Positions 1-15,878 of a stretch of 33,168 nt of DNA are shown here, piece by piece. Source of the stretch: Mycobacteriales bacterium (GTDB lineage Bacteria; Actinomycetota; Actinomycetes; JAFAQI01); NCBI GenBank assembly GCA_035550055.1, contig DASZRO010000026.1:1-33168 (forward strand). The letters are read 5' to 3'. Under the pieces are notes generated by a model that searched no databases, was not told the origin of the DNA, and saw only the letters and a program-made list of their open reading frames with translations. Positions within the stretch are counted from its first letter, which is position 1. Each line of letters begins with the position of its first letter. The position numbers and the translations under genes are program-made.

Positions 1-9
1 GGCCCACAA

Positions 10-54
10 CTGAAAAGCGGAAGGTCGGCGGTTCGACCCCGCCCCTGCCCACCA
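10..54 (+). tRNA. tRNA-Phe 3' half (partial; probable attachment-site remnant)
   Basis: Positions 10-16 form an anticodon loop CTGAAAA with anticodon GAA (Phe). They are followed by the 3' anticodon-stem strand (17-21), a five-base variable loop, a perfect T-stem (27-31 with 39-43) around the T-loop TTCGACC, a seven-base acceptor strand (44-50), discriminator A and an encoded CCA (52-54). The expected 5' anticodon-stem strand (5-9, CACAA) does not pair with GCGGA at 17-21; only one of five positions matches. The gene is therefore broken at the anticodon loop rather than simply cut by the window edge. Identity from the anticodon loop to the 3' end is a classic tyrosine-integrase attachment segment. 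The intact tRNA and the element would lie to the left. Confidence 0.75.
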
Positions 55-116
55 CTAGCGCGGATGTGCCACCGCTGCCGCTACAGCGCTACCGATGTGT
101 CATTCGCATCGCCGCG

Positions 117-122
117 TAGCCT
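117..122 (+). promoter_or_regulatory. possible -10 box (TAGCCT) for the secreted protein gene
   Basis: TAGCCT lies 8 nt before the GTG at 131. It resembles the TANNNT boxes found 6-7 nt before many starts in this window, although the spacing is one base long. It would give a leaderless or nearly leaderless transcript. No -35 element is clear. Confidence 0.3.
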
Positions 123-130
123 CGCTACTC

Positions 131-1003
131 GTGCCAGCTCTGCGTACCACCACCCTGATCGCCGGCGCCGCCGTCGTCGTGGCGCTGGCAGGCACCGGCG
201 TCGCGATCGGCCGCTCCGCCTCGTCCTCGTCAGGCTCCGCGACCTCCGGCCGCACGCCGGTCACCGCGCCTGCCACCCCGGTCTCGCCACCCAGCACCCC
301 GCCTGGCACCTCGTCGGTGGTCCCGGTCAGCCCGCCGCCGTCACCCGGTGGCGCCGGTACGACGCCGAGCGCACCCCCGACACCGACCACCAAGCTCGCG
401 ACCGAGCTCGCCGCCACCTTCCGGCGCGCGATCGCCCAGCACACCGTCCACACCGTCGCGAAGAACGTCTCCAAGAAGAGCGGCACCGCGACCTTCGACG
501 ACTACGACGGCGTACGGGTCGGCAGCCAACACATCACGATCAACGGCGGCAACGTGAAGGTGCGGGTCATCGGCCCGACGACCTACCTCAACGGCGACGC
601 CAAGGGCTTGGCGATCTACGGCATCACGCCCCAGGAGGTGCAGGCGCTGCACGGCCAGTGGCTGCCACTCGTCGCGGGTCAGGCCGGCTACCGGACGATC
701 ACCGCGGGTGTGACCATCTCCTCGACCCTGTACGCCGACGAGCTGAGCGGGCCGCTGACCCGCACCCCGACCAAGACCCTCGCGGGGGTGACGGTCTACG
801 GCATCTCCGGGGAGGGCACCGGCCCCGGCTCGCCGAAGGGGTCACACGCGACGCTGTGGATCAGCAAGCAGACGGGCCTGCCGGTCGAGTTCGACGCCGC
901 AAACCGCACCACGACGATCACCGAGACCTTCGAGGACTGGGGCAAGCCGATCCACGTCGAGACGCCGGCGAACGTCTACGGCCGTCCCGGACTGGCCAGC
1001 TGA
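131..1003 (+). CDS. secreted or membrane-anchored LppX/LprG-like protein
   Basis: A 290-residue protein. The N-terminus (MPALRTTT, then about 18 hydrophobic residues rich in Ala and Val) is a signal peptide or single membrane anchor without a lipobox Cys. A Ser/Thr/Pro-rich linker of about 70 residues follows. The folded C-terminal region has a beta-rich pattern ending in LWISKQTGLPVEFDA and a strand of alternating Thr/Ile. This resembles the LppX/LprA/F/G group of mycobacterial lipid-binding proteins, whose half-barrel ends with a similar 'TGLPV' turn. That assignment is an inference from pattern, and lipid binding is not shown. An in-frame ATG at 95 would add 12 residues. I prefer the GTG at 131 because of the TAGCCT box before it and the more typical signal-peptide start. 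The gene ends 17 bp before the convergent regulator gene. Confidence 0.7.
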   Translation: MPALRTTTLIAGAAVVVALAGTGVAIGRSASSSSGSATSGRTPVTAPATPVSPPSTPPGTSSVVPVSPPPSPGGAGTTPSAPPTPTTKLATELAATFRRAIAQHTVHTVAKNVSKKSGTATFDDYDGVRVGSQHITINGGNVKVRVIGPTTYLNGDAKGLAIYGITPQEVQALHGQWLPLVAGQAGYRTITAGVTISSTLYADELSGPLTRTPTKTLAGVTVYGISGEGTGPGSPKGSHATLWISKQTGLPVEFDAANRTTTITETFEDWGKPIHVETPANVYGRPGLAS

Positions 1004-1020: not shown

Positions 1021-3744
1021 TCAGGGCCGGTACTCGGCCGCCAGGAGCGCGACGTCGTCGCTGAGCCGGCGGCCGGCGAAGCGGTGGAGCCGCTCGAGCA
1101 CCTCGTCGAGGGAGTACTGCAGGTCGCCTGACTCCAGCGGGGAGACCACCCAGTTGAGGTCGACGAAGGCTCCCGCCTCGTCCCGGGTCTCGTTGACCCC
1201 GTCGGTGTAGAGCAGCAGCCGGTCGCCGGGGTTGAGCCAGCCCGACGTCGCGGTGGGCGCGGCGCCGAGCCCGAGGGGCAGCGCGTGGACGACGGACAGC
1301 TCACCGCCGCTGCCCCCGACGAACAGCTGCGGCGCGGGATGCCCGCAGGACACGACCGAGTAGGCGCCGTCGTCGCGCACCTCGGCCAGAACCGCGGTCG
1401 CGAAGTCCTCCTCCGACAGGTACGGCCGCAGCCGGCGGTCCATCTGCCGTGCGACTTCGGCGAGGTCGGGCAGATCGGCCGCCGCGGCGCGGAACTCCCC
1501 CAACACGATCGTCGCGATCCGGATCGCGGTCAGTCCCTTGCCTCGCACGTCGCCGACCAGCAGCCGCACCGAGCCGGCGCGGGGAACCACCTCGAACAGG
1601 TCGCCGCCGATCAGTGCCTCGGCGCTCGCACTCACGTAACGACCGGCCAGCGACACCGCGCCGAGCCGCGGCGGCACGGGCGCGAGGATCGCGCGCTGCG
1701 TCGCCTCGGCGACCCGCCGTACGTCGGCGAGCCGGCCCGACTGCTCGCGGAACGTCTCCGCTGTCTCCAGCGCGACCGCCGCCCGTCGCGCGACGTCTTC
1801 GACGAACGACACGTCCTCCGGTGCGTACTGGCGCCCGGAGTCCGCGTAGAGCAGCGTGATCGCGCCGAACGTCCCGCTGCGGCCGGTCAGCGGGACCACC
1901 ATCGCGCTCGACATCCCGAGCGCGCGGATGACGTCGCGGTGCTCCTCCGACGTCGCCATCGCCGCGATGACCTCGGTGTCGAGGACGGGGAACAGCCGGC
2001 TCTCACCCGACGCGACGACCTCAGGCGCGCCTCCCGGACGGTTCCCGGCGAGCGGGAAGCGCCCGGCCATGCTCTTCGCCCAGGCGAGCTGTCCCGGATC
2101 GCTGTGGTAGAGCGCGGCGACCTCGAGCCCGTCGTCGGAGGCCAGCTGGATGATGCACCAGTCGGCGAGCGTCGGCACGAGCAGCCGCGTGACGGCGTCC
2201 ATCGTCGCCTCGAAGTCCAGGCTGGACGCGAAAGCGACGGAGGCCTCGGCCAAGAACGCGAGCCGGCGCCGGGCGGCGTCCGCCCGCTCCATGGCGAGCG
2301 CCCGCTCGAACGCCTGCGCCAGGGCGTCCGCCATCGCGCCGACGAAGCCGATCTGGGTTTCCTCGTCGACGTCGGTCACCGCTCCGAAGGCGATCGTCAG
2401 TACGCCGAGGATGTGCTCCCCGACCCGCAGCGGCGCGACGTGCAGGCTCGTCTCGTGCGGGTAGATGTTGGCGAGCTTCGGGAACCTGGCAGCGAGCTGG
2501 GCACGGTTGCGGAAGTACATCGCGGTCCCGGTCCGTACGACGAGCGGGCCGGGCAGGTCTGCGGCCAGCGGCAGCTCGCGGTACGCCGGGTCGCGCGACG
2601 CCGGGTTCTCCCCGCCGACGGCCGCCGATCGCAGTACGCCGTCCTCGCCGAGCAGATACACCCGGACGTTCTGCGCGTCGAGATCCCCGAGCGCATTGCG
2701 GGTGATGACCTCGGTGATGTCGGCGACCGTGGCCGCGCCGGTCAGCTCGCGCGTGATCCGTTGCAGCAGCTGCAACCGGTCCCACGTGTCGTCGAGCGAG
2801 GACAGTCGCTCCACCTCGGCGGCGAGCGCCTCGGGGAACGACGGCGGCGCAGGCGGCGGGTCGCCGCGCTCAGCCGCGCGCAGCTGCTCGATCAGCGCCT
2901 CGACGTACCAGCGACGGAAGACCCGGTGCAGCACGGGAGCGCTCATCGTGAGCAGCCGTGCCGCGCGCGCGTACCGGTCCGCCGCGTCCAACGCCTCCAG
3001 GTAGCGCTCGCCGGCGTCGGCGGCAGAAAGCGGCAGGGTCAGGACCAGCTCGACCTCACTGTCACCCCGGTTCGCCGCGGCCAGCGCCTGCCGCTTGATC
3101 TCCGCCCGGGCCTGGGCGAAGTCCTCCGTGACGACCTCCACCAACCTGGTGATCGGCTCGGGCATGACCCGGCCGGTCGCGGCCTGCTCCGCCTTGAGCA
3201 GGGTCATCTCGCGCACCACGTTGTCGATGTGCGCCTTCGCGGCGAGCAGCAGATCGGTCGACACCGCCCCGACCCGCACCGTGTAGTGCGGCTCCGGCTC
3301 GTCGTCGAAGATCGCGGTGAGATCCAGGTCGAGACCGCTCGCCGGCGCGTTCGACCCGCTTTCGGCGTCCTCGGGCCGATCGCTGATCTCGGCCCACACG
3401 ACCTTGCCGCCCGGCGACTCGGTGACGCCCCAGCCGCTGGCGAGCGCCGCGATGAGCGACAGCCCGCGACCGGTCATCGTGTCGACGCTGGCGCGCCCGA
3501 CGACCGGCAGCGTGCGCCCGGCGTCCTCCACCTCGAGCCGCAGCGCCGTGCCGGTACGCGACAGCCGCAGCGTGACCGGCTCCTTGCCGTGCAGGATCGC
3601 GTTGGTCACCAGCTCGGACACCACCTGCTCGGCATCGTCGACCAAGTGGGAAGGCTCGTCAGCGAACCACTGCGCGGTGAACCGCCGCGCCTTGGGAACC
3701 GCGTCCGGCTCGGTGCCGAGCGTCAGCTCACAGACGGGTAACAC
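1021..3744 (-). CDS. RsbW-like kinase / GAF / GAF / PP2C (SpoIIE-type) phosphatase regulator
   Basis: A 907-residue cytoplasmic partner-switching protein. Residues 1-120 form a GHKL ATPase domain of the RsbW/SpoIIAB type, with an N-box SELVTNA (43-49) and a glycine-rich lid TGRGLSLI (91-98). Residues 140-300 are an alpha-helical, charged region of unknown role. Two GAF sensor domains follow (about 317-480 and 490-665). Residues 690-905 form a PP2C/SpoIIE phosphatase with the metal-binding aspartates in GGDLFEV (D715), GDVRGKG (D732) and YTDGVNE (D848). Family knowledge predicts phosphorylation and dephosphorylation of an anti-anti-sigma factor, here by one polypeptide. No sigma factor or antagonist lies beside it. 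The GTG start has GAGG six bases upstream. The gene is divergent from the cupredoxin-protease pair across 224 bp. Confidence 0.88.
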   Translation of the reverse strand: MLPVCELTLGTEPDAVPKARRFTAQWFADEPSHLVDDAEQVVSELVTNAILHGKEPVTLRLSRTGTALRLEVEDAGRTLPVVGRASVDTMTGRGLSLIAALASGWGVTESPGGKVVWAEISDRPEDAESGSNAPASGLDLDLTAIFDDEPEPHYTVRVGAVSTDLLLAAKAHIDNVVREMTLLKAEQAATGRVMPEPITRLVEVVTEDFAQARAEIKRQALAAANRGDSEVELVLTLPLSAADAGERYLEALDAADRYARAARLLTMSAPVLHRVFRRWYVEALIEQLRAAERGDPPPAPPSFPEALAAEVERLSSLDDTWDRLQLLQRITRELTGAATVADITEVITRNALGDLDAQNVRVYLLGEDGVLRSAAVGGENPASRDPAYRELPLAADLPGPLVVRTGTAMYFRNRAQLAARFPKLANIYPHETSLHVAPLRVGEHILGVLTIAFGAVTDVDEETQIGFVGAMADALAQAFERALAMERADAARRRLAFLAEASVAFASSLDFEATMDAVTRLLVPTLADWCIIQLASDDGLEVAALYHSDPGQLAWAKSMAGRFPLAGNRPGGAPEVVASGESRLFPVLDTEVIAAMATSEEHRDVIRALGMSSAMVVPLTGRSGTFGAITLLYADSGRQYAPEDVSFVEDVARRAAVALETAETFREQSGRLADVRRVAEATQRAILAPVPPRLGAVSLAGRYVSASAEALIGGDLFEVVPRAGSVRLLVGDVRGKGLTAIRIATIVLGEFRAAAADLPDLAEVARQMDRRLRPYLSEEDFATAVLAEVRDDGAYSVVSCGHPAPQLFVGGSGGELSVVHALPLGLGAAPTATSGWLNPGDRLLLYTDGVNETRDEAGAFVDLNWVVSPLESGDLQYSLDEVLERLHRFAGRRLSDDVALLAAEYRP

Positions 3745-4335: not shown

Positions 4336-7300
4336 ATGATGCGGCGTCTTGCGGTCTTCGGCGCGATTGTGGCGTCGGTGCTCGCCGGTGTCGCACCCGG
4401 CTACGCCGCGACGCGCTCGGCGCCGGCTGCCCCCACGCCGCTGCCGGTCGTCAGCACGATCACCCGCACGCTGCAGGACACCGTCCCCGCGCTGGTGCGC
4501 ACCGCGACCGACCTCGGCGCGCTGGCACCGCTCACCTCGCTTCAGGTCGCGTTGCCGCTCGCGCTGCCCGACGAGAGGGGCCTCAGCCGTTACGTCGCGG
4601 CCGAGTACCGACCGGGGTCAGCAGAGTTCCACCGGTTCCTGAGCCCGGCGCAGTTCGGTGCCCGGTTCGGCGCGCCGCAGCCGGAGCTCGCCTCCGTGGT
4701 CGCCGCGCTGCGGGGACTCGGCCTCCACGTCGACACGCCCGACCCCAACCGGCTGTTCGTCACGGCGTCGGGCCCGGCGCACCTGCTCGAAGACGTCTTC
4801 GGTACGGCGATCGACCGGTTCCGGTCCGGTGGCCGGTCGTTCTTCGCCAACACCGCCGACATCAGACTGCCGGCGAGCCTTGCCGACGCCGTCGCCGGCG
4901 TCATCGGCCTCGACGACGCCGCGCGACCCCAAGCGCGAGTCGTCGCCGGCCGGCCTGCCGCCGCCTCCTCACCCGCGGTCACGCCCGACCTGCTCACGAT
5001 CGGGCAGGACGGCGGCACGACGCCCTGCCCGGCCGCGATCGCGGGCGTCGGCTACACCGCACCCCAGCTGGCCTCGGCGTACGGGTTCGACGGCCTCTAC
5101 GCCAAGGGCTACCTCGGTCAGGGCATGTCCGCGGCACTCGTGGAGTTCGACGACTACCACGACAGCAACGTCGCGGGCGTGGAGTCCTGCTACCACCTGT
5201 CGACCCCGGTCACCCGCCGCCCGGTCGACGGCGGGTCGGGCGGCCCCCCGGCCGCAGGCGAGATCGAGGACATGGCCGACATCACGACGATGCTCGAGAT
5301 GCTGCCGAAGCTCGCGCACCTGTACGTCTACGTCGCGCCGAACACCGGGCTCGGCGAGGTCGACCTCTACAACCGGTTCGTCACCGACGACGACGCCCCG
5401 GTCATCTCCTCGTCGTGGGGCAGCTGCGAGGAGCTCGCCAGCGCTGCCGACAACCGCCTCTACGCGGCGATCACCGAGGAGGCCGCCGCGCAGGGGCAGC
5501 AGATCTTCCAGGCGAGTGGGGATGCCGGCGCGATCGACTGCAGCGGAGCCGTCCCGGCACCGACGGGGGACAGCATCAGCGTCGAGCAGGAAGCAAGCGT
5601 GCCGTGGGTGACCGGCGTGGGCGGGACGGACCTCGGGCAGCGGACCGCCAACGGACTGCCCGGTCCGCGCAGCGAGGCGACGTGGAACGACGAGGGCGCC
5701 GGTGGCGGCGGGGTCAGCTCGCTGTGGCGGATGCCCGCCTGGCAGCGTGCGCTGCCGTCGGCCCGCACCGCGCCAGGGCGCAGCGGCACCGCATGCGGTG
5801 CCCCACGCGGCCAGCTCTGCCGGGAGGTTCCGGACCTGTCGGCGGACGCCGACTTCGACTTCGGCATGCAAGGCGGCAAGTCACAGCTCGCGGGCGACGT
5901 CGGCTCGCCCGGCTACTCGATCTACTGCGCCACGTCGAACTGCTCGCTCGTCGGCAGCCTGCTCGGCCTGCCGCTGCCGCTGCCGCCGACGAGCGGAATC
6001 GGCGGATGGGAGCCGGTCGGCGGCACCAGCCTGTCGACGCCACTGACCGCGTCCGCGGCGGTGCTGTGGGACCAGGAGGCGAAGGCCGCGCAGCTGTCCG
6101 GGCTCGGCCTGGTCAACCCCTCGCTGTACCGGCTCGCGGCCGACCCTTCGTCGTACGCCAGGGACTTCCACGACATCACGACGGACAGCAACGACGCGCA
6201 GTACGCCGGGGACTGTCCGGTCGGCTGCAACCGCCACCACCTCTACGCCGCCGCCAAGGGCTACGACATGGCCACGGGCCTCGGCAGCTACGACGCCGCC
6301 GCCCTCGGCGCCGACCTGGTGAAGCTCGCCGCGCGGGTGAGCCTGCTGCCGGACCACGTGACGGTCTACGGCTACCACCACGGCGTCGCGACGACGGCGC
6401 CGGTCGCCGTGAGCACCGGGTTCCGCAGCGGCAGCTACGTCGCGAAGAGCGACGCCGGCTGGCTGCACGTCCGCCGAGGCCGCGCTCCGGGGAACCTCCA
6501 GTGGTCAGCGACGCCGGCCGGCCTGACGACGGGGACGCACGTCGGGCACATCACCGTCACGGTCGCCGGTCACACCTCGGTGCTGACCGTGAGCTACTCG
6601 GTGTCTCCCCGCGCCGTGATGAAGCTGTCGACGACGCACCTGCGCTTCCACGAGATCGCGCTGAACTCCTCCGGCAAAGCGACGATCGCGACCTGCGCCG
6701 GACCGCTGTGGAACGACGAGCTCTTCGACGCCGTCGACGGCTCGCCGTCCCAGGTGACGGACTCCCCGTCGAAGCAGACGCTGCGGATCACCAACACCGG
6801 ACCCGCCGGAAGTCAGCTGCACTGGCAGGCGGTCGCGACCACTCAGGTCGGCGCCTGGCTGAGCGTGGACCTCTTGCCCAAACACGCGACGGCGGCGCAG
6901 CGCCCCGCGCCCGCGCTCGTGCCGACCGACGGGACGCTGCCGGCCGCACAGCGCGCGACGCTGCCTCTGGTGTCCCTCGCCAACAGCAACGCGCTCGGCG
7001 GGTACCCGGCGATGCAGCAAGGCGTCTACCACGGGTCGGTCAAGGTCTACGACCTCGCGGACCCGCGCATCGTTCGCACCGTCCACGCCAGCCTCGTGCT
7101 CGGCAACGGCCACGGCACGCCGTACATCCGCAGCTACACCAAGTCCACGGCGCTGCACCTGGCGCGCGGTCAGCACAAGACCTTCACCATCCAGCTCAGC
7201 GACGGCAACGGCGCCTGCGGCTACCCCTACACCGTCGGCAGCGACGAGGACTGGGCGAGCCCGTCGTCAGCGACGTACGCCGGCACCGTGCCACCGACCG

Positions 7301-7440
7301 GGTCGCGCGCGGTGACGGTCAGCGTCTCGGCCAAGCACCTGAGCGCCGGACGGCACCCGTTCACGATCATCGTCCAGTCGCAGACCGCCGAGCCGAACCC
7401 CGACGTCATGCACTTCACGCTGACCGTCTCCCCGAAGTAG
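4336..7440 (+). CDS. secreted S53 sedolisin/kumamolisin-type protease with C-terminal beta-sandwich region
   Basis: A 1034-residue exported endopeptidase. A signal peptide (about 1-25) is followed by a pro-kumamolisin activation domain (about 60-190) and the S53 catalytic domain (about 230-665). The catalytic residues are visible: the Glu-Asp pair in EDMAD (E311, D315), the oxyanion aspartate in SGDAG (D396) and the nucleophile in GGTSLS (S565). The C-terminal calcium-site motif GYDMATGLG is also present. Sedolisins are serine-carboxyl proteases that usually work at acid pH. Residues about 680-1034 are extra and look like BACON/Ig-type beta repeats, perhaps for substrate or wall binding. GAGGA overlaps the end of the cupredoxin gene and serves as the ribosome site. 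The stop codon lies inside the left arm of a large hairpin shared with the convergent aminotransferase gene. Confidence 0.93.
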   Translation: MMRRLAVFGAIVASVLAGVAPGYAATRSAPAAPTPLPVVSTITRTLQDTVPALVRTATDLGALAPLTSLQVALPLALPDERGLSRYVAAEYRPGSAEFHRFLSPAQFGARFGAPQPELASVVAALRGLGLHVDTPDPNRLFVTASGPAHLLEDVFGTAIDRFRSGGRSFFANTADIRLPASLADAVAGVIGLDDAARPQARVVAGRPAAASSPAVTPDLLTIGQDGGTTPCPAAIAGVGYTAPQLASAYGFDGLYAKGYLGQGMSAALVEFDDYHDSNVAGVESCYHLSTPVTRRPVDGGSGGPPAAGEIEDMADITTMLEMLPKLAHLYVYVAPNTGLGEVDLYNRFVTDDDAPVISSSWGSCEELASAADNRLYAAITEEAAAQGQQIFQASGDAGAIDCSGAVPAPTGDSISVEQEASVPWVTGVGGTDLGQRTANGLPGPRSEATWNDEGAGGGGVSSLWRMPAWQRALPSARTAPGRSGTACGAPRGQLCREVPDLSADADFDFGMQGGKSQLAGDVGSPGYSIYCATSNCSLVGSLLGLPLPLPPTSGIGGWEPVGGTSLSTPLTASAAVLWDQEAKAAQLSGLGLVNPSLYRLAADPSSYARDFHDITTDSNDAQYAGDCPVGCNRHHLYAAAKGYDMATGLGSYDAAALGADLVKLAARVSLLPDHVTVYGYHHGVATTAPVAVSTGFRSGSYVAKSDAGWLHVRRGRAPGNLQWSATPAGLTTGTHVGHITVTVAGHTSVLTVSYSVSPRAVMKLSTTHLRFHEIALNSSGKATIATCAGPLWNDELFDAVDGSPSQVTDSPSKQTLRITNTGPAGSQLHWQAVATTQVGAWLSVDLLPKHATAAQRPAPALVPTDGTLPAAQRATLPLVSLANSNALGGYPAMQQGVYHGSVKVYDLADPRIVRTVHASLVLGNGHGTPYIRSYTKSTALHLARGQHKTFTIQLSDGNGACGYPYTVGSDEDWASPSSATYAGTVPPTGSRAVTVSVSAKHLSAGRHPFTIIVQSQTAEPNPDVMHFTLTVSPK

Positions 7441-7516
7441 CACACAACCACCCCACCGAACCGGACAGGAATGGCGGAACCCCGCCGCTTCCGGGGAGTT
7501 CGTGTGCTACTTCGGG
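7431..7516. terminator. large inverted repeat (family A, copy 1), probable bidirectional terminator
   Basis: The left arm (7431-7448, CCCGAAGTAGCACACAAC) pairs with the right arm (7498-7516), apart from one extra C. The roughly 50-nt interior holds a second hairpin, GGCGG/CCGCC at 7473-7486. The left arm contains the TAG of the protease gene, and the right arm ends one base before the stop of the convergent aminotransferase gene. A site filling the whole convergent gap suits termination in both directions. The arm sequence recurs at 22088-22170 and, diverged, at 21255-21342. Confidence 0.7.
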
Positions 7517-8731
7517 TCAGGGCTGGGTGTACGTGGACAGGAACTCGCCGATGCGGGTGATGGCGTCGGCGAGCACCTCGGCGTGCGGCAGTGTGACGAT
7601 CCGGAGGTGGTCGGGGTCCGGCCAGTTGAAGCCGGTGCCGTAGGTCACGAGGATCTTCTCCGCGCGCAGCAGATCGAGGGCGAACCGCTGGTCGTCCTTG
7701 ATCGGGTAGACCTCGGGGTCGAGCCGCGGGAAGGCATACAACGCCCCTTGCGGCTTCGTGCACGAGACGCCGGGGATGTCGTTGAGCATCCGCCAGGCGA
7801 CGTCGCGCTGCTCGCGCAGCCGGCCGCCCGGCAGGATCAGCTCGTTGATGCTCTGGTAGCCGCCGAGCGCGGTCTGGATCGCGTGCTGCGCCGGCACATT
7901 GGCGCACAGCCGCATGTTGGCGAGCAACGAGACGCCCGACACGTAGCTCTCGGCGTGCTGCTTCGGACCGCTGATGACCACCCACCCGGCGCGGAATCCG
8001 GCCACCCGGTAGGCCTTCGACAGGCCGCTGAACGTCAGGCAGATGACGTCGGGCGCAAGCGAGGCCAGCACCGTGTGCTCGGCGTCGTCGTAGAGGATCT
8101 TCTCGTAGATCTCGTCACTGAAGATGACCAGGTCGCGCTCGCGGGCGAACTGCACGATCGCCTCGAGGGTCTCCTTGGGATACACCGCGCCCGTGGGGTT
8201 GTTCGGGTTGATGACGACGATCGCCTTCGTACGATCGGTGACCTGCGCCGCCATGTGCTCGAGGTCCGGCTGCCAGTCCTGGGACTCGTCGCAGCGGTAG
8301 TGCACCGCGCGGCCGCCCGACAGCACCGTCGTGGCGGTCCACAGCGGGTAGTCCGGCGCCGGGATCAGCACCTCGTCGCCCGGGTTGAGCAACGCCTGAA
8401 GGGTCATTGAGATCAGCTCGCTGACGCCGTTGCCGAGATAGATGTCATCGACGGTGACGCCCTCGACACCCTTGAGCTGGTAGTACTGCTCCACCGCCGT
8501 ACGCGCGGAGTAAAGGCCCTTGGACTCGCTGTAGCCCTGCGCGGTGTGCAGGTTGCGGGTGATCGCCTGCAGGATCTCGTCGGGCGCTTCGAAGCCGAAC
8601 GGCGCGGGGTTTCCGATGTTGAGCTTGAGGATGCGGTGGCCCTCCTGCTCCATCCGGGCTGCCTCGTCCAGCGCCGGGCCACGTACGTCGTACACGACAC
8701 CCTGGAGCTTGTCGGACTGGCGCAGGTCCAC
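7517..8731 (-). CDS. PLP-dependent class I aminotransferase, alanine/aspartate type (AlaA/AspC-like)
   Basis: A 404-residue fold-type I aminotransferase, full length for the family. The substrate and cofactor motifs are in order: NPNNPTG (175-181), SDEIYE with the PLP-pyridine aspartate D206, and SGLSKAYRVAGFRAGW with the Schiff-base lysine K239. The last motif and the N-terminal LNIGNPAPFGF are typical of the AlaA-type alanine:2-oxoglutarate aminotransferases, annotated as AspC in mycobacteria. Substrate choice between alanine and aspartate cannot be settled from the sequence. The GTG start has AGAGGA almost touching it, so the ribosome site is unusually close and the true start remains a little uncertain. 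The gene is convergent with the protease gene. Confidence 0.9.
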   Translation of the reverse strand: MDLRQSDKLQGVVYDVRGPALDEAARMEQEGHRILKLNIGNPAPFGFEAPDEILQAITRNLHTAQGYSESKGLYSARTAVEQYYQLKGVEGVTVDDIYLGNGVSELISMTLQALLNPGDEVLIPAPDYPLWTATTVLSGGRAVHYRCDESQDWQPDLEHMAAQVTDRTKAIVVINPNNPTGAVYPKETLEAIVQFARERDLVIFSDEIYEKILYDDAEHTVLASLAPDVICLTFSGLSKAYRVAGFRAGWVVISGPKQHAESYVSGVSLLANMRLCANVPAQHAIQTALGGYQSINELILPGGRLREQRDVAWRMLNDIPGVSCTKPQGALYAFPRLDPEVYPIKDDQRFALDLLRAEKILVTYGTGFNWPDPDHLRIVTLPHAEVLADAITRIGEFLSTYTQP

Positions 8732-8843
8732 GTCCTCTACCCGCCCTCCACGCTGCTAGGAAGCCGGCCGCGCCGGCGCTGATGCGTCGAGGTTACGTGC
8801 GATGTGCAAGTGACGCCGCGCATTTACGGCGTGCCGGGACAGC

Positions 8844-8883
8844 ACAAGGCCGCGTCAACGCCGGAGTTGTGACGCGGCCTTGT
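8844..8883 (-). terminator. bldC transcription terminator hairpin
   Basis: A perfect 14-bp stem (ACAAGGCCGCGTCA at 8844-8857 with 8870-8883) closes a 12-nt loop, 40 bp after the bldC stop. There is no T-run on either strand, as is common in GC-rich actinobacteria. It also shields the aminotransferase promoter region from readthrough. Confidence 0.75.
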
Positions 8884-8922
8884 CGCGTCCGTCCCGCCGG
8901 CACTGGGCCCCGGCGGGACGGT

Positions 8923-9126
8923 TCAGAGCGAGCGCTGGTTCGGCAAGCCGGCAAGCAGCGCGCGAACCTCGCTCTCGCGGTAGCGACGGTGGCCGCCGAG
9001 GGTCCGGATGGAGGTCAGCTTCCCGGCCTTCGCCCACCGCGTGACGGTCTTCGGGTCGACACGGAACATCGTCGCGACCTCGGCTGGGGTGAGCAGGGGC
9101 TCGGCGTCTGCGGTACGGGTGGTCAT
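8923..9126 (-). CDS. bldC: developmental regulator BldC (MerR-like DNA-binding protein)
   Basis: A 67-residue protein consisting of a single winged helix-turn-helix. The block LLTPAEVATMFRVDPKTVT followed by RWAKAGKL and LGGHRRYRE is almost identical to Streptomyces BldC, where it represses early entry into sporulation by binding cooperatively to direct repeats. This is a transcription factor without an effector domain. The ATG has GGAG nine bases upstream. The neighbouring conserved hypothetical and amino-acid dehydrogenase genes also accompany bldC in Streptomyces. A strong hairpin follows the gene. Orthology is secure. Whether this organism sporulates cannot be judged here. Confidence 0.96.
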   Translation of the reverse strand: MTTRTADAEPLLTPAEVATMFRVDPKTVTRWAKAGKLTSIRTLGGHRRYRESEVRALLAGLPNQRSL

Positions 9127-9199
9127 CGTTTGGAACTCCGTTTCTGGGGACCGGATGCGCGGTCGACATTCATGGTGAAGATGTCGCGGGATATCCGGT

Positions 9200-9217
9200 A
9201 TGGCCCATCGGGACCAT
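9200..9217. promoter_or_regulatory. inverted repeat upstream of bldC
   Basis: Seven-base arms ATGGCCC and GGACCAT with one mismatch flank ATCG, about 75 bp upstream of the bldC start. The 237-bp region 9127-9363 has no gene. It is visibly richer in A/T near 9225-9260 and probably holds the bldC promoter. The repeat may be an operator, but nothing identifies its protein. Confidence 0.25.
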
Positions 9218-9363
9218 CTTTCGAACTACCAGTGACTAGTCCGAAAAATCGTCTTTAGTCCGCCGTTGGGTAGCGGATGAGGACGAGGTCCGTCATGTCC
9301 GGTACGGCTGCGGCGCCAGGGACGTTCACCGGCGCGGGCGCAGATCCGCGGTGCGGGTTCGCC

Positions 9364-10230
9364 TCAGTTCGCGTGCTCGAGGGAGGCGATCGAACGCCAG
9401 CGGCTGATGACCCGCTCGTAGCACTGCCCCGCCGCCGGCAGGTCGCCGGCGATGAGCCGCTCGAGCGCCTCTTCGAGGTCGGCCACCGACACGTCCTCGC
9501 TGAGCACCTCGTCGCTGACCAGATGCACCAGGCCGCCGTAGTCGAGCTCCACCAGCGAGTGCGGGTGGAACTCCTCGAGCCAGCGACCGACCTCTTCGAT
9601 GTTGGACGTCGCCGGGCCGTCGCCGAAGATCCGCTGCACGACCCGCAGCGACTTGGCGATCCGGCGGCGGGCGCGCGACATCGCGGTGAGGTAGATCAAC
9701 GCCCGATCGAGGCCGCCCTCCGGCGAGGCGTCGGTACGGCGCTCGCCGAGGACCAGGCGCCGCTCGCTGGCCTCGAAGGCGAGAAACCACGCGATCGGCA
9801 CCTGCCAGGTCGCGGTCAGGATCCCCGCGCGCAGCTGCGGGTTGCGCTCGCGCCACACGTCGCGCGCGTCCTCGGCCGCGGCGCTCAGCGCGGCGGGGAA
9901 GAACGCGTCGCGCAGCTCGTCCGGCAGCTGCGACCGGAAGCTGTCCATCGCGTCCCAGGCGCGCATCTGCAGCCGCCACGGGCAGACGTAGGTGAGCCCG
10001 TCCAGCTCGCGCACATACGCGTGGTCGCTGCCGTCGGAGAGGTCCAGCCGCGGTGGGATCGCCAACACCGCGGCGAGGGCGACCTGATGTTCACGCACCA
10101 TCTGCACCGGGCGGCTGGGTACGTCGCCGGCAGCGATGTAGGCCTGCCAACGGATGCGCTCCGTCTCCGCCAGACCCGACAGCGGCTCGTACACCCGCAG
10201 ATGCGCGGCGTACCCCATCACGTCAGCCAT
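9364..10230 (-). CDS. conserved actinobacterial hypothetical protein (bldC-dehydrogenase neighbour)
   Basis: A predicted 288-residue soluble protein, mostly alpha-helical, with many Arg, Glu and Trp residues and no signal peptide or membrane segment. I recognise no catalytic motif. Its place between bldC and the dehydrogenase matches a hypothetical gene conserved at this locus in Streptomyces (SCO4090 from memory). The reading frame stays open far upstream, but that part is Arg-rich shadow of the divergent dehydrogenase gene. The ATG at 10230 (MADVMGYAAHL) or at 10218 are the plausible starts. Only 26 bp separate it from the divergent dehydrogenase start, so the two promoters must overlap. 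Confidence 0.85.
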   Translation of the reverse strand: MADVMGYAAHLRVYEPLSGLAETERIRWQAYIAAGDVPSRPVQMVREHQVALAAVLAIPPRLDLSDGSDHAYVRELDGLTYVCPWRLQMRAWDAMDSFRSQLPDELRDAFFPAALSAAAEDARDVWRERNPQLRAGILTATWQVPIAWFLAFEASERRLVLGERRTDASPEGGLDRALIYLTAMSRARRRIAKSLRVVQRIFGDGPATSNIEEVGRWLEEFHPHSLVELDYGGLVHLVSDEVLSEDVSVADLEEALERLIAGDLPAAGQCYERVISRWRSIASLEHAN

Positions 10231-10237
10231 CCTGCCA

Positions 10238-10252
10238 CGACGACTAGCGTCG
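10238..10252. promoter_or_regulatory. inverted repeat in the 26-bp divergent promoter of the dehydrogenase
   Basis: CGACG (10238-10242) and CGTCG (10248-10252) are perfect five-base arms around ACTAG. They lie exactly where the -10 box of the dehydrogenase gene must be. A protein bound here would block both divergent genes. Confidence 0.35.
10245..10250 (+). promoter_or_regulatory. -10 box TAGCGT of a leaderless amino-acid dehydrogenase transcript
   Basis: TAGCGT ends 6 nt before the GTG at 10257. The gap to the divergent gene is only 26 bp and holds no ribosome-binding sequence, so a leaderless mRNA is the simplest reading. Confidence 0.55.
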
Positions 10253-10256
10253 GAAC

Positions 10257-11327
10257 GTGGGCGTCTTCGCGCAGGCTCCGGACCACGAGCAGGTCGTCTT
10301 CTGCCACGACCGGTCGAGCGGGCTGCGGGCGATCGTCGCGATCTACTCGACCGCGCTCGGTCCCTCACTCGGCGGCACCCGGTTCTACCCGTACGGCGAC
10401 GAGGACGCCGCGCTCGCCGACGTGCTCGACCTGTCACGTGCGATGGCCTACAAGAACGCCGTGGCCGGTCTTGCCCACGGCGGTGGCAAGGCGGTCATCA
10501 TCGGCGACCCGGCTACCGACAAGACCGAGCCGTTGCTGAGGGCGTACGGAAGCTTTGTCGCCTCGCTCGGCGGGCGCTACTACACCGCCTGCGACGTCGG
10601 GACCTACGTCGAGGACATGGACGTCGTCGCGCAGGAGTGCCGCTACACCACCGGGCGCTCGCCTGCGAACGGCGGCGCCGGCGACTCCTCACTGCTGACG
10701 GCGTTCGGGGTCTTCCAAGGGATGCGGGCAGCCGCCGACGCCGCCTGGGGCAGCCCGTCGCTGGCCGGGCGCCGGGTCGGGATCGCGGGCGTCGGCAAGG
10801 TCGGCCGCCGGCTGACCGAGCACCTGTTGGCGGACGGCGCGAGCGTGGTCGTGGCCGATGTCGATGCCGCGGCCGTCGTGAAGCTGCAAGCGGCGTACCC
10901 CTCGATCGACGTCGCGGCGCCCGACAACCTCGTCGACCAGGCGCTCGACGTGTACTCCCCGTGCGCGCTCGGCCACGCCCTCACCGACGACGTCGTCGTG
11001 CGACTGCAGGCCGAGATCGTGTGTGGCGGCGCCAACAACCAGCTCGACCACGCCGGGACCGAGGCCCTGCTCGCCGAGCGCGGCATCCTCTTCGCCCCCG
11101 ACTACGTGGTGAACGCCGGCGGGGTGATCCAGGTCGCCGACGAGGTCCACGGGTACGACGAGGCTCGCGCCACGGCCAAAGCCGCCGAGATCCTGGACAC
11201 CACCGCGGCGATCCTGGCGAGTGCGGCAAGCCAGGGAATCACCCCGTCTCAGGCTGCGGACACGCTCGCCGAGCAGCGGATGGCGGCGGCGGGCGGACGA
11301 CCCCTGCGGCTTCCCGGCGACCGCTGA
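10257..11327 (+). CDS. Glu/Leu/Phe/Val dehydrogenase family protein (branched-chain amino-acid dehydrogenase)
   Basis: A 356-residue NAD-dependent amino-acid dehydrogenase, which oxidatively deaminates a branched-chain amino acid to its 2-oxo acid and ammonia. The family signature [15 protein letters not shown] carries the catalytic lysine K78. A Rossmann nucleotide-binding motif (GIAGVGKVG) follows in the second half. The size and sequence fit leucine/valine dehydrogenases, and the position near bldC matches the Streptomyces valine dehydrogenase gene. Leu versus Val preference is not decidable by eye. The start is a GTG without a ribosome site but with a -10 box at 6 nt. This enzyme could feed acyl-CoA precursors or nitrogen catabolism. 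Confidence 0.92.
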
Positions 11328-11424
11328 TATTCTGTCCATCGGTCCGGTTGACCGGATTGTGTGACCTGAACCAGTTCCGTCTCGCCACCGGGGATGACCC
11401 GTGGCCTACGAGGGGGTCGAGCCA

Positions 11425-11628
11425 ATGGGGCGCGGCCGTGCCAAGGCAAAGCAGACGAAGGTCGCCCGCGAGTTGAAGTACTCCAGCGGCGGGACCGACC
11501 TGGACCGTCTGGCACAAGAGCTTGCCGCCGAGCGCGGCACAACGAGCTATGCCACGACCACCACGTCTTCTTCCGACAACGACGAAGACGACTACGACGA
11601 CCCCTACGCGTCCGACGACGACGAGTAG
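11425..11628 (+). CDS. DUF3073 small protein
   Basis: A 67-residue protein of a family found throughout actinobacteria. The basic N-terminus MGRGRAKAKQTKVAR, the block KYSSGGTDL and a strongly acidic Asp/Glu tail (DNDEDDYDDPY) are diagnostic. The function is unknown. The split basic/acidic composition suggests nucleic-acid or ribosome contact, which is inference only. The ATG at 11425 has GAGGGGG about 8 nt upstream. An upstream in-frame GTG at 11401 would place that ribosome site inside the gene and is less likely. The gene follows the dehydrogenase by about 100 bp and is convergent with purM across a palindromic terminator. Confidence 0.9.
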   Translation: MGRGRAKAKQTKVARELKYSSGGTDLDRLAQELAAERGTTSYATTTTSSSDNDEDDYDDPYASDDDE

Positions 11629-11648
11629 CTCACCCACCCTCTTTCCGT

Positions 11649-11706
11649 CGAGCCCAACCTTTTTGGTCTTTCAGGGCACCCCGAAAGACCAACAACGTTG
11701 GGCTCG
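11649..11706. terminator. 58-bp two-storey palindrome (family B, copy 1), probable bidirectional terminator
   Basis: The outer arms CGAGCCCAAC (11649-11658) and 11697-11706 pair perfectly over 10 bp. A 4x4 internal loop follows. The inner arms TTGGTCTTTC (11663-11672) and 11683-11692 again pair perfectly over 10 bp around a 10-nt loop. It lies between the stops of DUF3073 and purM, only 3 bp from the latter. A related 58-bp copy is at 32805-32862. Confidence 0.75.
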
Positions 11707-11709
11707 GCG

Positions 11710-12714
11710 TCAGGTCGGGGTGACCTCGCCGCAGACCCAGGCTTCGGTTTTCCTGCTCCGTAGGTGGTCGAGCGCTGCCTGAGCTGACGCCTCGGGTACG
11801 ACGGCGACCATGCCGACGCCCAGGTTGAACGTCCGCTCCATCTCCGCTGCCGCAACCTTCCCGCGATCGGCGATGAGCTGGAAGATCGGCGCCGGCGTCC
11901 AGGTCGTCGTATCGATTGCGGCCGACAGCCCGTCGGGCAGCACCCGCGCCAGGTTCGCCGTCAGGCCGCCACCGGTCACGTGGGAGAACGCGTGCACCTC
12001 GGTGGCGGCCGCCAGCGTGAGGCAGTCCTTCGCGTAGATCCGGGTCGGGGTCAACAGCACCTCGCCGAGCGGCGTACCGAGGTCGGCTGCCGACTCCAGC
12101 GGGATCTTCGAGACGGAGAGCAGCACGTGCCGGGCCAGCGAGTAGCCGTTGGAGTGCAGCCCGCTCGACGCCATCGCGATGACCACGTCCCCCGCACGCA
12201 CCCGCTCCGGCCCGAGTAGGTCCGCGTCGCGGACCATGCCGGTCGCCGCGCCTGCGATGTCGTACTCGTCAGGCCCGAGCAGCCCCGGATGCTCGGCGGT
12301 CTCCCCGCCGATCAGGGCACAGCCGGCCAGCGCGCAACCGGCGTCGATGCCGGCCACTATGTCGGCGATCCGGTCAGGTACGACGCGACCACACGCGATG
12401 TAGTCGGTCATGAACAGCGGCTCCGCGCCGCACACCACGATGTCGTCCACGACCATGCCGACGAGGTCGTGGCCGATGGTGTCGTGGCGGTCCATCGCCT
12501 GGGCGATCGCGACCTTCGTCCCGACACCGTCGGTCGAGGTCGCGAGCAGCCGCTCGGCGTCGATCCGGAACAGCCCGGCGAACCCGCCGAGCCCGCCGAC
12601 CACCTCCGGGCGGGTCGAGGTCAGCCGGCCCTTGATCAGCTCGACCGCACGGTCGCCGGCCTCGATGGACACGCCGGCGGCGGCGTAGGTGGCCGCGCCC
12701 TCGACCTCCGTCAC
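11710..12714 (-). CDS. purM: phosphoribosylformylglycinamidine cyclo-ligase (AIR synthetase)
   Basis: A 334-residue cytoplasmic enzyme that closes the imidazole ring: FGAM + ATP gives AIR (purine step 5). The N-terminal ATYAAAGVSIEAGDRAVELIK, the segment STDGVGTK and the block HVTGGGLTANLARVLP are hallmark PurM sequences of the AIRS/ThiL ATP-binding fold. Length is normal for the family. The start is the GTG at 12714, chosen because it forms a GTGA overlap with the purF stop. The frame remains open upstream only inside purF. It is cotranscribed with purF, and the 3' end is closed by a palindrome 3 bp past the stop. Confidence 0.97.
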   Translation of the reverse strand: MTEVEGAATYAAAGVSIEAGDRAVELIKGRLTSTRPEVVGGLGGFAGLFRIDAERLLATSTDGVGTKVAIAQAMDRHDTIGHDLVGMVVDDIVVCGAEPLFMTDYIACGRVVPDRIADIVAGIDAGCALAGCALIGGETAEHPGLLGPDEYDIAGAATGMVRDADLLGPERVRAGDVVIAMASSGLHSNGYSLARHVLLSVSKIPLESAADLGTPLGEVLLTPTRIYAKDCLTLAAATEVHAFSHVTGGGLTANLARVLPDGLSAAIDTTTWTPAPIFQLIADRGKVAAAEMERTFNLGVGMVAVVPEASAQAALDHLRSRKTEAWVCGEVTPT

Positions 12715-14231
12715 GGACGCGTGAGCGCGTCCGCCGCACCAACACCCGGCAACAGCTGCTCGCCCGCGACGTGGGCATCGGCCTCGACCACCCGGGAGAT
12801 GCCTTCCAACATGTGCTTGCCGAGCAGCTCCGGCGCAGGGAGGTCGATCGGGTACTGCCCGTCGAAGCAGGCGCGGCACAGCCGCTCACCCGGGATCGTC
12901 GTCGCCGAGATCAGCTCGTCGAGGGAGATGTAGCCCAGCGAGTCCGCGCCGATCGAGCCGCAGATCTGCTCGACGGTCAGCCCGTTGGCGATCAGCTCGG
13001 CGCGGGTCGCGAAGTCGATGCCGTAGAAGCACGGCCACTGCACCGGGGGCGAGGAGATGCGGACGTGCACCTCCGCCGCTCCCGCTTCGCGCAGCATCCG
13101 GACGAGTGCCCGCTGCGTGTTGCCGCGCACGATCGAGTCGTCGACGACGACGAGCCGCTTCCCGGCGATCGCGTTGCGCAGCGGGTTCAGCTTCAGCCGG
13201 ATGCCGAGCTGGCGGATCGTGTCCGACGGCTGGATGAAGGTCCGCCCGACGTAGGCGTTCTTCACCAGGCCGATGCCGTACGGGATCCCGCTCGCCTCGG
13301 CGTAGCCGACGGCGGCCGGCGTACCGCTCTCCGGCACCGGGATCACCAGGTCGGCATCCGCGGGGTGCTCCTTGGCGAGGCGGCGGCCGACCTCGACGCG
13401 CGTCTCCTGCACCGACCGCCCGGCGATCGAGGTGTCGGGGCGCGCCAGGTAGACGTACTCGAACAGGCACCCCTTCGGGGTCGCCTCGGCGTACCGCTGC
13501 GAGCGCAGGCCGTGCTCGTCGATCGCGATCAGCTCGCCCGGCTCGATCTCGCGGACGAACGACGCACCGACGATGTCGAGCGCGGCGGTCTCGCTGGCGA
13601 CGACCCACCCGCGCTCGAGCCGGCCGAGCACGAGCGGGCGCACCCCGTGCGGGTCGCGCGTGGCGTACAGGGTCTGCTCGTCCATGAACACCAGCGAGAA
13701 CGCGCCGACCAGCTTCGGCAGCACCTCCATCGCCGCGGCCTCCAGCGAGAGGTCCTGGTAGCCGGCGAGCATCTCGGTGATCAGGTCCGAGTCACTGGTG
13801 GCGCGCGGCTCGGCACTCGGCGCGTCCCGGTCGATTCCTGCCATCAGCGCGAGCTGTGCGGTGTTGGTCAGGTTCCCGTTGTGACCGAGCGCGATCCCGC
13901 CGCCCTGCGGTGAGGGCCGGTACGACGGCTGCGCGTTCTCCCAGGTGCACGAACCCGTAGTCGAGTACCGGTTGTGGCCGATCGCGAGATGGCCCGACAT
14001 CGCGCCGAGCGTCGGCTCGTCGAAGACCTGCGCGACCAGACCGAGGTCTTTGTAGACCACGACCGCGCGGCCGTCGGACACCGCCATGCCGGCGGCCTCC
14101 TGGCCGCGGTGCTGCAAGGCGTAGAGCCCGTAGTAGGTGAGCTTGGCTACCTCTTCGCCAGGTGCCCAGACGCCGAAGACGCCACACGCATCCTTGGGAG
14201 GGGCCTCATCCGGGATGTCGGCGTATCCCAC
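12711..14231 (-). CDS. purF: amidophosphoribosyltransferase (glutamine PRPP amidotransferase)
   Basis: A 506-residue enzyme of the first committed purine step: PRPP + glutamine gives phosphoribosylamine. A short propeptide precedes the nucleophile C16 in DACGVFG, so N-terminal processing as in the Bacillus-type enzyme is expected. The class II amidotransferase domain (LQHRGQE, GHNRYSTTG) is followed by the type I phosphoribosyltransferase domain with the PRPP loop VVVDDSIVRGNT. A C-terminal Cys pair in LCRACFDGQYP fits the iron-sulfur cluster form. The GTG start at 14231 lies 7 nt from a TAGACT box, which suggests a leaderless message. The long open frame upstream is shadow of the flavodoxin gene. 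The stop overlaps the purM start. Confidence 0.97.
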   Translation of the reverse strand: MGYADIPDEAPPKDACGVFGVWAPGEEVAKLTYYGLYALQHRGQEAAGMAVSDGRAVVVYKDLGLVAQVFDEPTLGAMSGHLAIGHNRYSTTGSCTWENAQPSYRPSPQGGGIALGHNGNLTNTAQLALMAGIDRDAPSAEPRATSDSDLITEMLAGYQDLSLEAAAMEVLPKLVGAFSLVFMDEQTLYATRDPHGVRPLVLGRLERGWVVASETAALDIVGASFVREIEPGELIAIDEHGLRSQRYAEATPKGCLFEYVYLARPDTSIAGRSVQETRVEVGRRLAKEHPADADLVIPVPESGTPAAVGYAEASGIPYGIGLVKNAYVGRTFIQPSDTIRQLGIRLKLNPLRNAIAGKRLVVVDDSIVRGNTQRALVRMLREAGAAEVHVRISSPPVQWPCFYGIDFATRAELIANGLTVEQICGSIGADSLGYISLDELISATTIPGERLCRACFDGQYPIDLPAPELLGKHMLEGISRVVEADAHVAGEQLLPGVGAADALTRP

Positions 14232-14238
14232 GGCGTCG

Positions 14239-14244
14239 AGTCTA
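14239..14244 (-). promoter_or_regulatory. -10 box TAGACT of a leaderless purF transcript
   Basis: Read on the minus strand, TAGACT lies 7 nt before the purF GTG. It sits in the 69-bp divergent gap with the flavodoxin gene. Confidence 0.55.
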
Positions 14245-14300
14245 GGGGCCCGCCGCGTTGCGGGATGACGACTGGCCGCAGTTCCGGCAACCTTGGCGCC

Positions 14301-15059
14301 GTGCAGGTGCTGGTGGTGTACGGCTCGACCCGCGGGGCAACCGCCGGGCTCGCCCACATGGTCGCCGACGCGTGCGCGACCCACGGCGTGGCCACGTCGG
14401 TACGCCGAGCCGTCGACGTACGCAGCATCAGCGGTGTGGACGCGGTCGTCGTCGGGGGCGCGATCTACGGCAACCGCTGGCACCCCGAGGCAACCGCGTT
14501 CGTCCGCCGCCACCACACCGCGCTGCGCGAACTTCCGGTGTGGTTCTTCTCGAGCGGGCCGCTCGACGACTCCGCGCGTTCGGGGGCGCTCGCGGCCTTG
14601 CCGCAGGTGAGCAGCCTCGCGCGTGAGATCGACATCCGCGGCCACATGACGTTCGGCGGCATGCTCGACCGCCGGCCTACCGGACTGCTGGCCATGTCGC
14701 CGTGGCGGACCCTGGGCGACTTCCGGGACCGCGACCACGTGGCCGAGTGGGTCGATCGCATCGCAGCCGAGCTAGCGGCGGGCGCGTCGAGTGAGTCGGA
14801 AGGCGCCGGGAGCAGGCACACCGGCAAATCGAAGCCGCGGCCGAAGAAGCCGAAGGTGGTGATCAAGCCGTTCGCGCCGGAGCCGCCGCGGCCGGCGTAC
14901 GACGAGATCGTGATCGCCAGCGAGCCGAGCGGCGAAGCGCGGCGGATGTCCCGGCTGCGCCGGTACCTGACGCTCGACCCGGCCAGGGATGACGACGACG
15001 AGGGCCTGGACCTGTTCACCGAGCTGACCGACTCCGAGCCGCTCGACGACCCGGTGTGA
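14301..15059 (+). CDS. flavodoxin-domain protein with charged C-terminal extension
   Basis: A 252-residue protein. Residues 1-155 form a flavodoxin fold. The FMN phosphate loop is VVYGSTRGAT near the N-terminus, and the later motifs GGAIYGNRWH and WFFSSGPLDD match the protoporphyrinogen-oxidase-like (HemG/flavodoxin_5) branch. Residues about 160-252 are not part of that fold: a Lys/Pro-rich segment around KSKPRPKKPK is followed by a strongly acidic tail. The electron partner is unknown. The GTG at 14301 gives a typical flavodoxin start. An ATG at 14265 would add 12 residues, and neither has a good ribosome site. The gene is divergent from purF. Confidence 0.85.
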   Translation: MQVLVVYGSTRGATAGLAHMVADACATHGVATSVRRAVDVRSISGVDAVVVGGAIYGNRWHPEATAFVRRHHTALRELPVWFFSSGPLDDSARSGALAALPQVSSLAREIDIRGHMTFGGMLDRRPTGLLAMSPWRTLGDFRDRDHVAEWVDRIAAELAAGASSESEGAGSRHTGKSKPRPKKPKVVIKPFAPEPPRPAYDEIVIASEPSGEARRMSRLRRYLTLDPARDDDDEGLDLFTELTDSEPLDDPV

Positions 15060-15090
15060 CGGCGGCCGACTGGTCCTTGGCTGCGCGCAG

Positions 15091-15495
15091 CTATCTCCCG
15101 CTCGCGGCAGCCAGCTTCGGCAACATCGTGGTCCAGCCGTCGAGATGGCTGTCGTACTCATCGGGCGGCAGGTCGCGGTGGACGAGCTCGACGACGGTCT
15201 GCGGCCCGTCCGCGGTCAGCGAGATCTCCACCGTCGAGGAGCCGGGTGGCATCGTGTCGTGGCCGGGGACGCCCCAGGTGAAGACGACGCGGTGCGGCGG
15301 GTCCACCTCGACGTAGGACCCGCGCACCGCAGTGCTGGCGAAGTCGAGCGCAAACGACCCGCCCGGCTGCGGATCGAGGTCGGCCCACTCGCCGATCCAC
15401 TCGACCATCAGCGCCGGGTCGACGAGGTAGGGGAAGACCGCTTCTGGAGGAGCCGAGATGCGGACCGTCGCTGTCAGTACGTCGGGAGACGTCAT
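15091..15495 (-). CDS. SRPBCC (AHSA1-like) protein
   Basis: A 134-residue START/SRPBCC-fold protein of the activator-of-Hsp90-ATPase-like group. The N-terminal ISAPPEAVFPYLVDP and the central EVDPPHRVVFTWG are typical. The fold makes a deep hydrophobic pocket for a small ligand, but the ligand is unknown. The ATG at 15495 overlaps the stop of the arsR-type gene (ATGA), so the two are translationally coupled. SRPBCC genes paired with ArsR regulators are common in actinobacteria. No catalytic residue can be named. Confidence 0.88.
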   Translation of the reverse strand: MTSPDVLTATVRISAPPEAVFPYLVDPALMVEWIGEWADLDPQPGGSFALDFASTAVRGSYVEVDPPHRVVFTWGVPGHDTMPPGSSTVEISLTADGPQTVVELVHRDLPPDEYDSHLDGWTTMLPKLAAASGR

Positions 15496-15866
15496 GGCTT
15501 GCCCCGGTTCGGCGACTGGGACTTGCGGCGCTGCTCCGCCTCGACCACCTGCTTGAGCCGCTGCAGTGTGGCGGGCCACAGCTCGGCGAGCACCCCTCTC
15601 ACCGGATCCAACCCGTGCGGGTCGAGCGCGTACAGCCGACGTACGCCGTCCCGCCGCTCGCTGAGCAGACCCGCCCGGGCCAAGACCTGGAGGTGGTGGC
15701 TGACCGCCTGCTGCGACGCGTCGAAGTGGGACGCGATCTCACCCGCCGCCAGCTCGCCGGTCCGCACCAACCGCAGTATCTGGCGGCGGTGCGGATCGGC
15801 GAGTGCGCGAAGAACGACGTCGGCCTGGTCATCGGGACCGATCGCCGAACTCGCTTCCGCGCGCAT
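15492..15866 (-). CDS. ArsR-family transcriptional repressor
   Basis: A 124-residue winged helix-turn-helix protein. RALADPHRRQILRLV opens the domain, and the recognition helix region is DASQQAVSHHLQVLARAGLL, the ArsR hallmark. It has no cysteine cluster of the metal-sensing branch, so it belongs to the SRPBCC-associated, non-metal group. It lies between two SRPBCC genes (12-bp gap upstream, ATGA overlap downstream). It probably represses its own operon, and perhaps the divergent exporter, through the palindrome at 16435-16452. Confidence 0.92.
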   Translation of the reverse strand: MRAEASSAIGPDDQADVVLRALADPHRRQILRLVRTGELAAGEIASHFDASQQAVSHHLQVLARAGLLSERRDGVRRLYALDPHGLDPVRGVLAELWPATLQRLKQVVEAEQRRKSQSPNRGKP

Positions 15867-15878
15867 CCGTCAACGATC

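Follow-up and report, generated by a model that had tools for sequence, protein, structure and literature searches.

A partial tRNA-Phe at a contig edge as the probable attR core of an 8.9-kb integrative element with a divergent IetA/IetS pair

Results

A tRNA-Phe fragment at the left edge of the window

The window analysed here (33,168 nucleotides) is the whole of contig C26 of the source genome, G000, which comprises 3,535,489 bases in 122 contigs. Positions 10-54 of this window are very probably the right-hand attachment core (attR) of an 8.9-kb site-specific integrative element that entered a tRNA-Phe gene when a tyrosine integrase recombined attP with attB. The element bears putative paired arm sites at its ends, an excisionase-type (Xis) gene and a cargo made up of an IetAS gene pair and MMPL/TetR genes.

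The core is the 45-bp 3' part of tRNA-Phe, running from the anticodon loop (CTGAAAA) through the stem strand GCGGA, the variable loop AGGTC, the T-arm (GGCGG/TTCGACC/CCGCC) and the acceptor strand CCTGCCC to A and CCA. Positions 1-9 lie outside the tRNA part, bases 5-9 (CACAA) cannot pair with 17-21, and ARAGORN called no tRNA in the window. A first-pass annotation had described this perfect 3' part and the unpairable bases in front of it, and the letters read as it said. It had also taken the edge to be the chromosomal end of the element. The junction is real, but the left edge of the window is simply the end of the contig; hence the element's share of the window amounts to bases 1-9 only.

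All 45 bases match bases 33-77 of the genome's intact tRNA-Phe, with the match ending abruptly on both sides. The 17-mer CTGAAAAGCGGAAGGTC, with which the segment starts, occurs at three sites in G000 (C26:10, plus strand; C12:132 and C12:9073, minus strand); its reversed sequence, used as a control, occurs at none. The final 141 bases of the C12 minus strand are exactly identical to window positions 1-141. Because the ends of C12 and C26 overlap in this way, two of the three sites represent one and the same junction. Judged by this exact contig-end overlap and by the synteny described below, C12 and C26 are joined here. The right end of the window has no match elsewhere in G000.

Across the join, the intact and the partial tRNA-Phe share exactly 45 bp as a direct repeat, the copies being 8,941 bp apart. 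The intact gene marks attL, where the att copy brought in by the element has made it complete again. These results agree with what had been anticipated from the window: that the element would stretch leftward from position 9 (as it does, on C12), that an intact tRNA-Phe with the same 45-bp segment would stand at its far end, within 100 kb, and that an integrase gene would lie beside one copy. A tyrosine integrase gene is indeed found next to the intact tRNA-Phe. Neither of the outcomes named beforehand as contrary to this reading, an intact tRNA-Phe at this position or the lack of a second copy within about 100 kb, was encountered. The possibility of a tRNA intron was dropped because the intact tRNA-Phe is uninterrupted and the sequence to the left of window position 10 leads into a TetR gene rather than a tRNA 5' half. 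A nucleotide search of plasmids with window positions 1-1003 returned four records, three of them short matches to the tRNA part and the fourth a 77-bp match elsewhere.

Table 1. Features of the element and its right flank (window positions refer to C26).
Feature	Location	Strand	Basis or remark
Intact tRNA-Phe	C12:9105-9029	minus	ARAGORN
Integrase	C12:7583-8944	plus	ORF; Pfam Phage_integrase E 4e-23 and SAM-like domain; PHROG integrase E 3e-70
ORF without family match	C12:7952-7227	minus	No match in Pfam, PADLOC, NCBIfam or PHROG
HTH_17/excisionase-family protein	C12:6959-6711	minus	TIGR01764, 49.9 bits against a cut-off of 28.8
IetA, AAA ATPase	C12:6701-5733	minus	PADLOC E 2.5e-82
IetS, subtilisin-like S8 protease	C12:5696-3300	minus	PADLOC E 2.6e-76
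MMPL transporter	C12:1037-3343	plus	Pfam family search
TetR regulator	C12:1128-352	minus	Pfam family search
Last 9 bases of the integrated element	window 1..9	plus	Remainder on G000:C12, 9028 down to 133, minus strand
45-bp attR core (displaced tRNA-Phe 3' part)	window 10..54	plus	45/45 to intact tRNA-Phe
Start of chromosomal flank, right of insertion	window 55..94		Repeat identity ends at 54/55
Flank gene, 302 aa, predicted secreted (N-terminus judged by eye)	window 95..1003	plus	46.8% over 297 aa to L011:1164-1997
Next chromosomal gene, 907 aa	window 1021..3744	minus	71.5% over 828 aa at L011:6966-4510

The uninterrupted site in a sister genome

Only one other genome of the genus, G001, was among those searched. 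Its contig C14 (locus L011) carries the empty site. The left-flank gene has a counterpart there (62% over 269 aa), the tRNA-Phe at 990-1066 is intact, and the first two genes of the window are likewise represented by homologues, that of the 302-aa flank protein following directly after the tRNA. No such element lies between the tRNA-Phe and the flank genes there. The gene order of G001 thus matches both sides of the C12-C26 join, and the order in G000 is most simply explained as the ancestral one plus 8.9 kb. The 302-aa flank protein itself gave no Pfam match. Further to the right, window positions 11700-28100 hold a run of genes resembling purine-biosynthesis genes, named from a reading of their translations and looking like ordinary chromosome. 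G001 also contains 14 stretches matching the element's integrase (on contigs C42, C51, C60, C134, C146, C154, C175, C213 and C214), a number that suggests, on sequence similarity, many integrated elements in that genome.

Gene content of the element

Seven ORFs (Table 1) fill 91.7% of the non-core element when the integrase is taken from 7715 and the unmatched ORF up to 7590. The true integrase start is probably later than 7583, near 7715. The integrase motifs are intact (LRQGE, HDARHT and a tyrosine at residue 431), and its stop codon lies 85 bp from the 3' end of the tRNA. At 67.4%, the GC content of the element is a little below that of the flanks (about 70%). Searches with Pfam, PHROG and tblastn with the proteins of plasmid pMR2 found no Rep, FtsK or phage structural families among the element's genes. 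In particular, none of the seven proteins matched PHROG families of the structural, packaging or lysis types that would mark a prophage.

A tandem GTCTCA pair at the element ends

Both ends of the element bear the tandem motif GTCTCA-N6-GTCTCA, with half-sites 12 bp apart. In the 49,140-bp joined region the 19-mer GGTCTCAGTTTTGGTCTCA has exactly two sites, one at either end of the element and both oriented alike; the next-best match is 14 of 19. It starts 69 bp from the end of the 45-bp core, as compared with 71 bp in the related genome G011 (see below); on the far side, pair and core of the element are 150 bp apart.

A class-wide search found relatives of the integrase (E ≤ 1e-40) in 57 of 296 genomes, the source genome included. 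A GTCTCA pair (at least 11 of 12) lies within 400 bp beside the integrase end at 16 of the 29 loci other than our own, and at 18 of them when a 900-bp stretch is considered; six of the remaining 11 have instead a GGCAGCCA pair with the same 12-bp period. Reversed sequences used as a control gave no GTCTCA pair in 233,696 bases. Sixteen longer stretches were picked from the 29 loci after the near-side motif had been seen, so its occurrence on the integrase side in 16 of 16 reflects selection. This does not apply to the far side: a second tRNA-3' core (at least 43 of 45) was present in 13 of the 16, with none in the other three within the fetched stretch, and 12 of them, L110 being the exception, have a second GTCTCA pair at 122-133 bp inward from that core. 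From its position, repetition and conservation, the GTCTCA pair is probably an arm-type site of the integrase. It is not diagnostic on its own, since among 56 stretches of viral contigs with such a pair only two encode an integrase relative, one of them within 500 bp of the motif. Our literature searches turned up no description of an integrase site made up of the GTCTCA pair; such searching is weak for sequence letters, and no claim of absence is made.

Integrase relatives and their tRNA targets

In a tree built from 32 integrases, one change is enough to account for either label, GTCTCA or GGCAGCCA, with 100/100 support; five of the 32 rows are without either label, and tRNA labels denote the nearest tRNA, that of plasmid pCM32 having been assigned by eye. 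In the GTCTCA group the closest tRNA is Phe, Ser or Cys, and in the GGCAGCCA group Lys or Met. With the midpoint root as drawn, the element's own integrase falls beside the GGCAGCCA group, and the GTCTCA group is therefore one side of a branch and not necessarily a clade. The GGCAGCCA pair and its 12-bp period were seen at L082, L084-L087, L091 and L059, where integrases lie near tRNA-Met or tRNA-Lys; L059 belongs to the sister genome G001 and is at tRNA-Lys. A contig scan with the element's integrase gave three distant loci, 27-28% identical, in Dehalococcoidia and SAR202. A study of actinomycete integrative and conjugative elements (AICEs) states that their tyrosine integrases sit mostly at tRNA 3' ends and that close integrases can use different tRNA genes, for example tRNA-Lys versus tRNA-Met (PMC3218068).

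Other tRNA-Phe insertions in the order

When the 17-mer was searched (allowing one mismatch) in 13 genomes of the order, ten had a single match; a second, truncated copy was present in G000, G011 and G012. In G011 (L058; C103:24000-43000), an intact tRNA-Phe at 5228 is followed by a second copy, identical at 45 of 45 positions, at 8811. Between the two, at 7221-7589, is a fragment 63% identical over 123 aa to the pMR2 integrase. Beyond them, at 11756-12065, is the relic of an integrase 69-77% identical to that of the element, and the arm 19-mer occurs at 8926 and 13903. No second core was found at the far arm pair, the best match (25 of 45) being elsewhere in the stretch. The region from 5228 to 13921 looks like two tandem elements after tRNA-Phe. 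G012 has its intact and its truncated copy on separate contigs (L093, C101:2064; L094, C56:15911), and the sequence beyond both copies also agrees over at least 15 bp.

Comparison with AICEs

The element has the direct repeat with one intact tRNA, the adjacent tyrosine integrase and the empty site in a relative that are looked for in tRNA-borne elements; it also has a tyrosine integrase and Xis at a tRNA 3' end, as AICEs do. Like those of the AICEs pMR2 (Micromonospora rosaria, NC_006910) and pCM32 (Saccharopolyspora endophytica, NZ_KM260754; presumed here to be an AICE), the integrase gene ends beside a core formed by a tRNA 3' part and is preceded by an excisionase-type gene. The tRNA-Phe core of pMR2 is 95% identical and its Xis 56% identical to ours, whereas its integrase is only 26% identical and no GTCTCA pair is present at a threshold of at least 10 of 12. 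In pCM32 the integrase is 49% identical, and on this circular plasmid GTCTCA pairs at 14,308 and 14,089 flank a T-arm-like stretch near the integrase end.

Unlike in AICEs, no Rep or FtsK-type Tra was found, and the cargo consists of IetAS and MMPL/TetR. The pMR2 Rep gave no tblastn match in C12, the RepSA, RepAM and Prim-Pol Pfam domains are absent from the seven element proteins, and an FtsK/SpoIIIE-type Tra was not found in the element by Pfam or by tblastn of C12. Since neither Rep nor Tra was found, we do not class the element as an AICE. With the same pMR2 proteins (tblastn, E ≤ 1e-5), six of the 16 longer stretches yielded a Rep relative and six an FtsK relative; C12 yielded neither. 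The element is a small non-conjugative integrative island of a known kind, with an AICE-like integrase-excisionase module.

The IetA/IetS pair

The ietA and ietS genes are adjacent on one strand, as expected of an IetAS pair, and the Walker A motif of IetA (GPPGCGKT) and the IetA/IetS motifs DDG, HGTN and GTSFA are all present. Scores stay under the NCBIfam equivalog cut-offs for both proteins (224 of 510 bits for IetA, 97 of 900 bits for IetS), and the top IetS match in a plasmid search was 33% identical. By these sequence comparisons the two proteins form a divergent pair of their families. The tblastn search of the 16 longer stretches around related integrases detected no IetA or IetS relative.

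SGI1, an integrative mobilizable island, and pTiC58, a plasmid, both carry an AAA-ATPase/subtilisin toxin-antitoxin pair. The likeness to SGI1 with its SgiAT lies in a chromosomal island bearing an ATPase-protease pair of the same families; host and island type differ from those of SGI1/SgiAT and pTiC58 IetAS, and no mobilization genes were seen here. According to one report, pairs of these families act as a toxin-antitoxin system that stabilises SGI1 in the presence of an IncA/C plasmid (SgiAT; PMC5006074). In a study of Pf phages, IetAS is linked to phage resistance by a mechanism that its authors call unknown (PMC11878078). The IetAS anti-phage system, as modelled in PADLOC and as described on Pf phages in that study (PMC11878078), likewise has IetA and IetS adjacent on one strand; it differs in that the element's pair is divergent and scores below the equivalog cut-offs. 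The putative pair likely serves either phage defence or self-maintenance, in the manner of an island-stabilising toxin-antitoxin system.

Discussion

The direct repeat, the intact tRNA-Phe, the integrase, the empty site in G001, the families of the cargo genes and the return of the arm pair in relatives are observed; we infer the recombination chemistry, as well as the functions of the arm sites and of the excisionase, present-day mobility and the role of IetAS. The integrase would have recombined two sites, attP, which is the copy of the 45-bp tRNA-Phe 3' part on a circular element, and attB, which is the tRNA-Phe gene of the chromosome, by a crossover inside the shared 45 bp, which starts at the anticodon loop. 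Such an event would make the tRNA-Phe whole again at attL, on the left; the 3' part that the gene had originally would end up on the right, at the start of the window. The GTCTCA pair at each end most likely binds the integrase as its arm-type site, and the HTH_17/excisionase-type protein likely acts as a directionality factor.

A truncated copy that ARAGORN does not call could also be a decayed tRNA-Phe pseudogene or a random duplication unrelated to any mobile element. We consider this extremely improbable, given a match that includes CCA over 45 of 45 positions and stops sharply at the anticodon loop, an integrase gene adjoining the other copy, and the uninterrupted site in G001. That the left edge might be an assembly artefact, a chimera or contamination at a contig end, is suggested by the start of the window at such an end, by the occurrence of the same 141 bp on two contigs and by the lack of a similar overlap at the window's right end. 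This, too, seems very improbable: exact end overlaps of this sort presumably arise between adjacent contigs in k-mer-graph assembly, gene order over the join agrees with that of G001, and C12 by itself holds both tRNA copies as well as the integrase and the chromosomal gene on the left.

The element could also be described as an AICE or prophage that has decayed and lost its mobility, with cargo as what persists. This description is compatible with the origin by site-specific integration favoured here and differs from it only as to present mobility. Rep, FtsK and phage structural genes were not found, the seven ORFs leave little room for others, and AICE genes do accompany related integrases. 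The element does, however, retain the integrase with its motifs intact, the excisionase-type gene and, at either end, a core and an arm pair, and we regard degradation as possible though somewhat doubtful.

Mobile islands of this kind inserted in tRNA genes are well known. What goes beyond expectation is the conservation of the arm pair across changing tRNA targets and the presence of IetAS on an 8.9-kb island without transfer genes. A broader reading, which we think about equally apt to hold or to fail, is that a group of actinobacterial integrases keeps an arm-type site (a GTCTCA half-site repeated after 12 bp, in the same orientation at both ends) while switching among tRNA-Phe, tRNA-Ser and tRNA-Cys, with a sister group using GGCAGCCA at tRNA-Lys and tRNA-Met. 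If so, recognition of the arm and recognition of the core would evolve independently of each other, the pair together with the integrase would serve as a tag for element ends, and IetAS would be a keeper that kills or poisons cells losing the island.

A truncated tRNA, spotted by eye within 54 bases, correctly foretold an element on another contig, with its att sites, its integrase and its empty-site ancestor. The island provides an example of a putative defence or addiction pair that sits, in the absence of transfer genes, together with an integrase and an excisionase-type gene. The arm pair, by its recurrence, offers a testable rule for locating element ends in related actinobacteria and for distinguishing the arm from the core specificity of tyrosine integrases.
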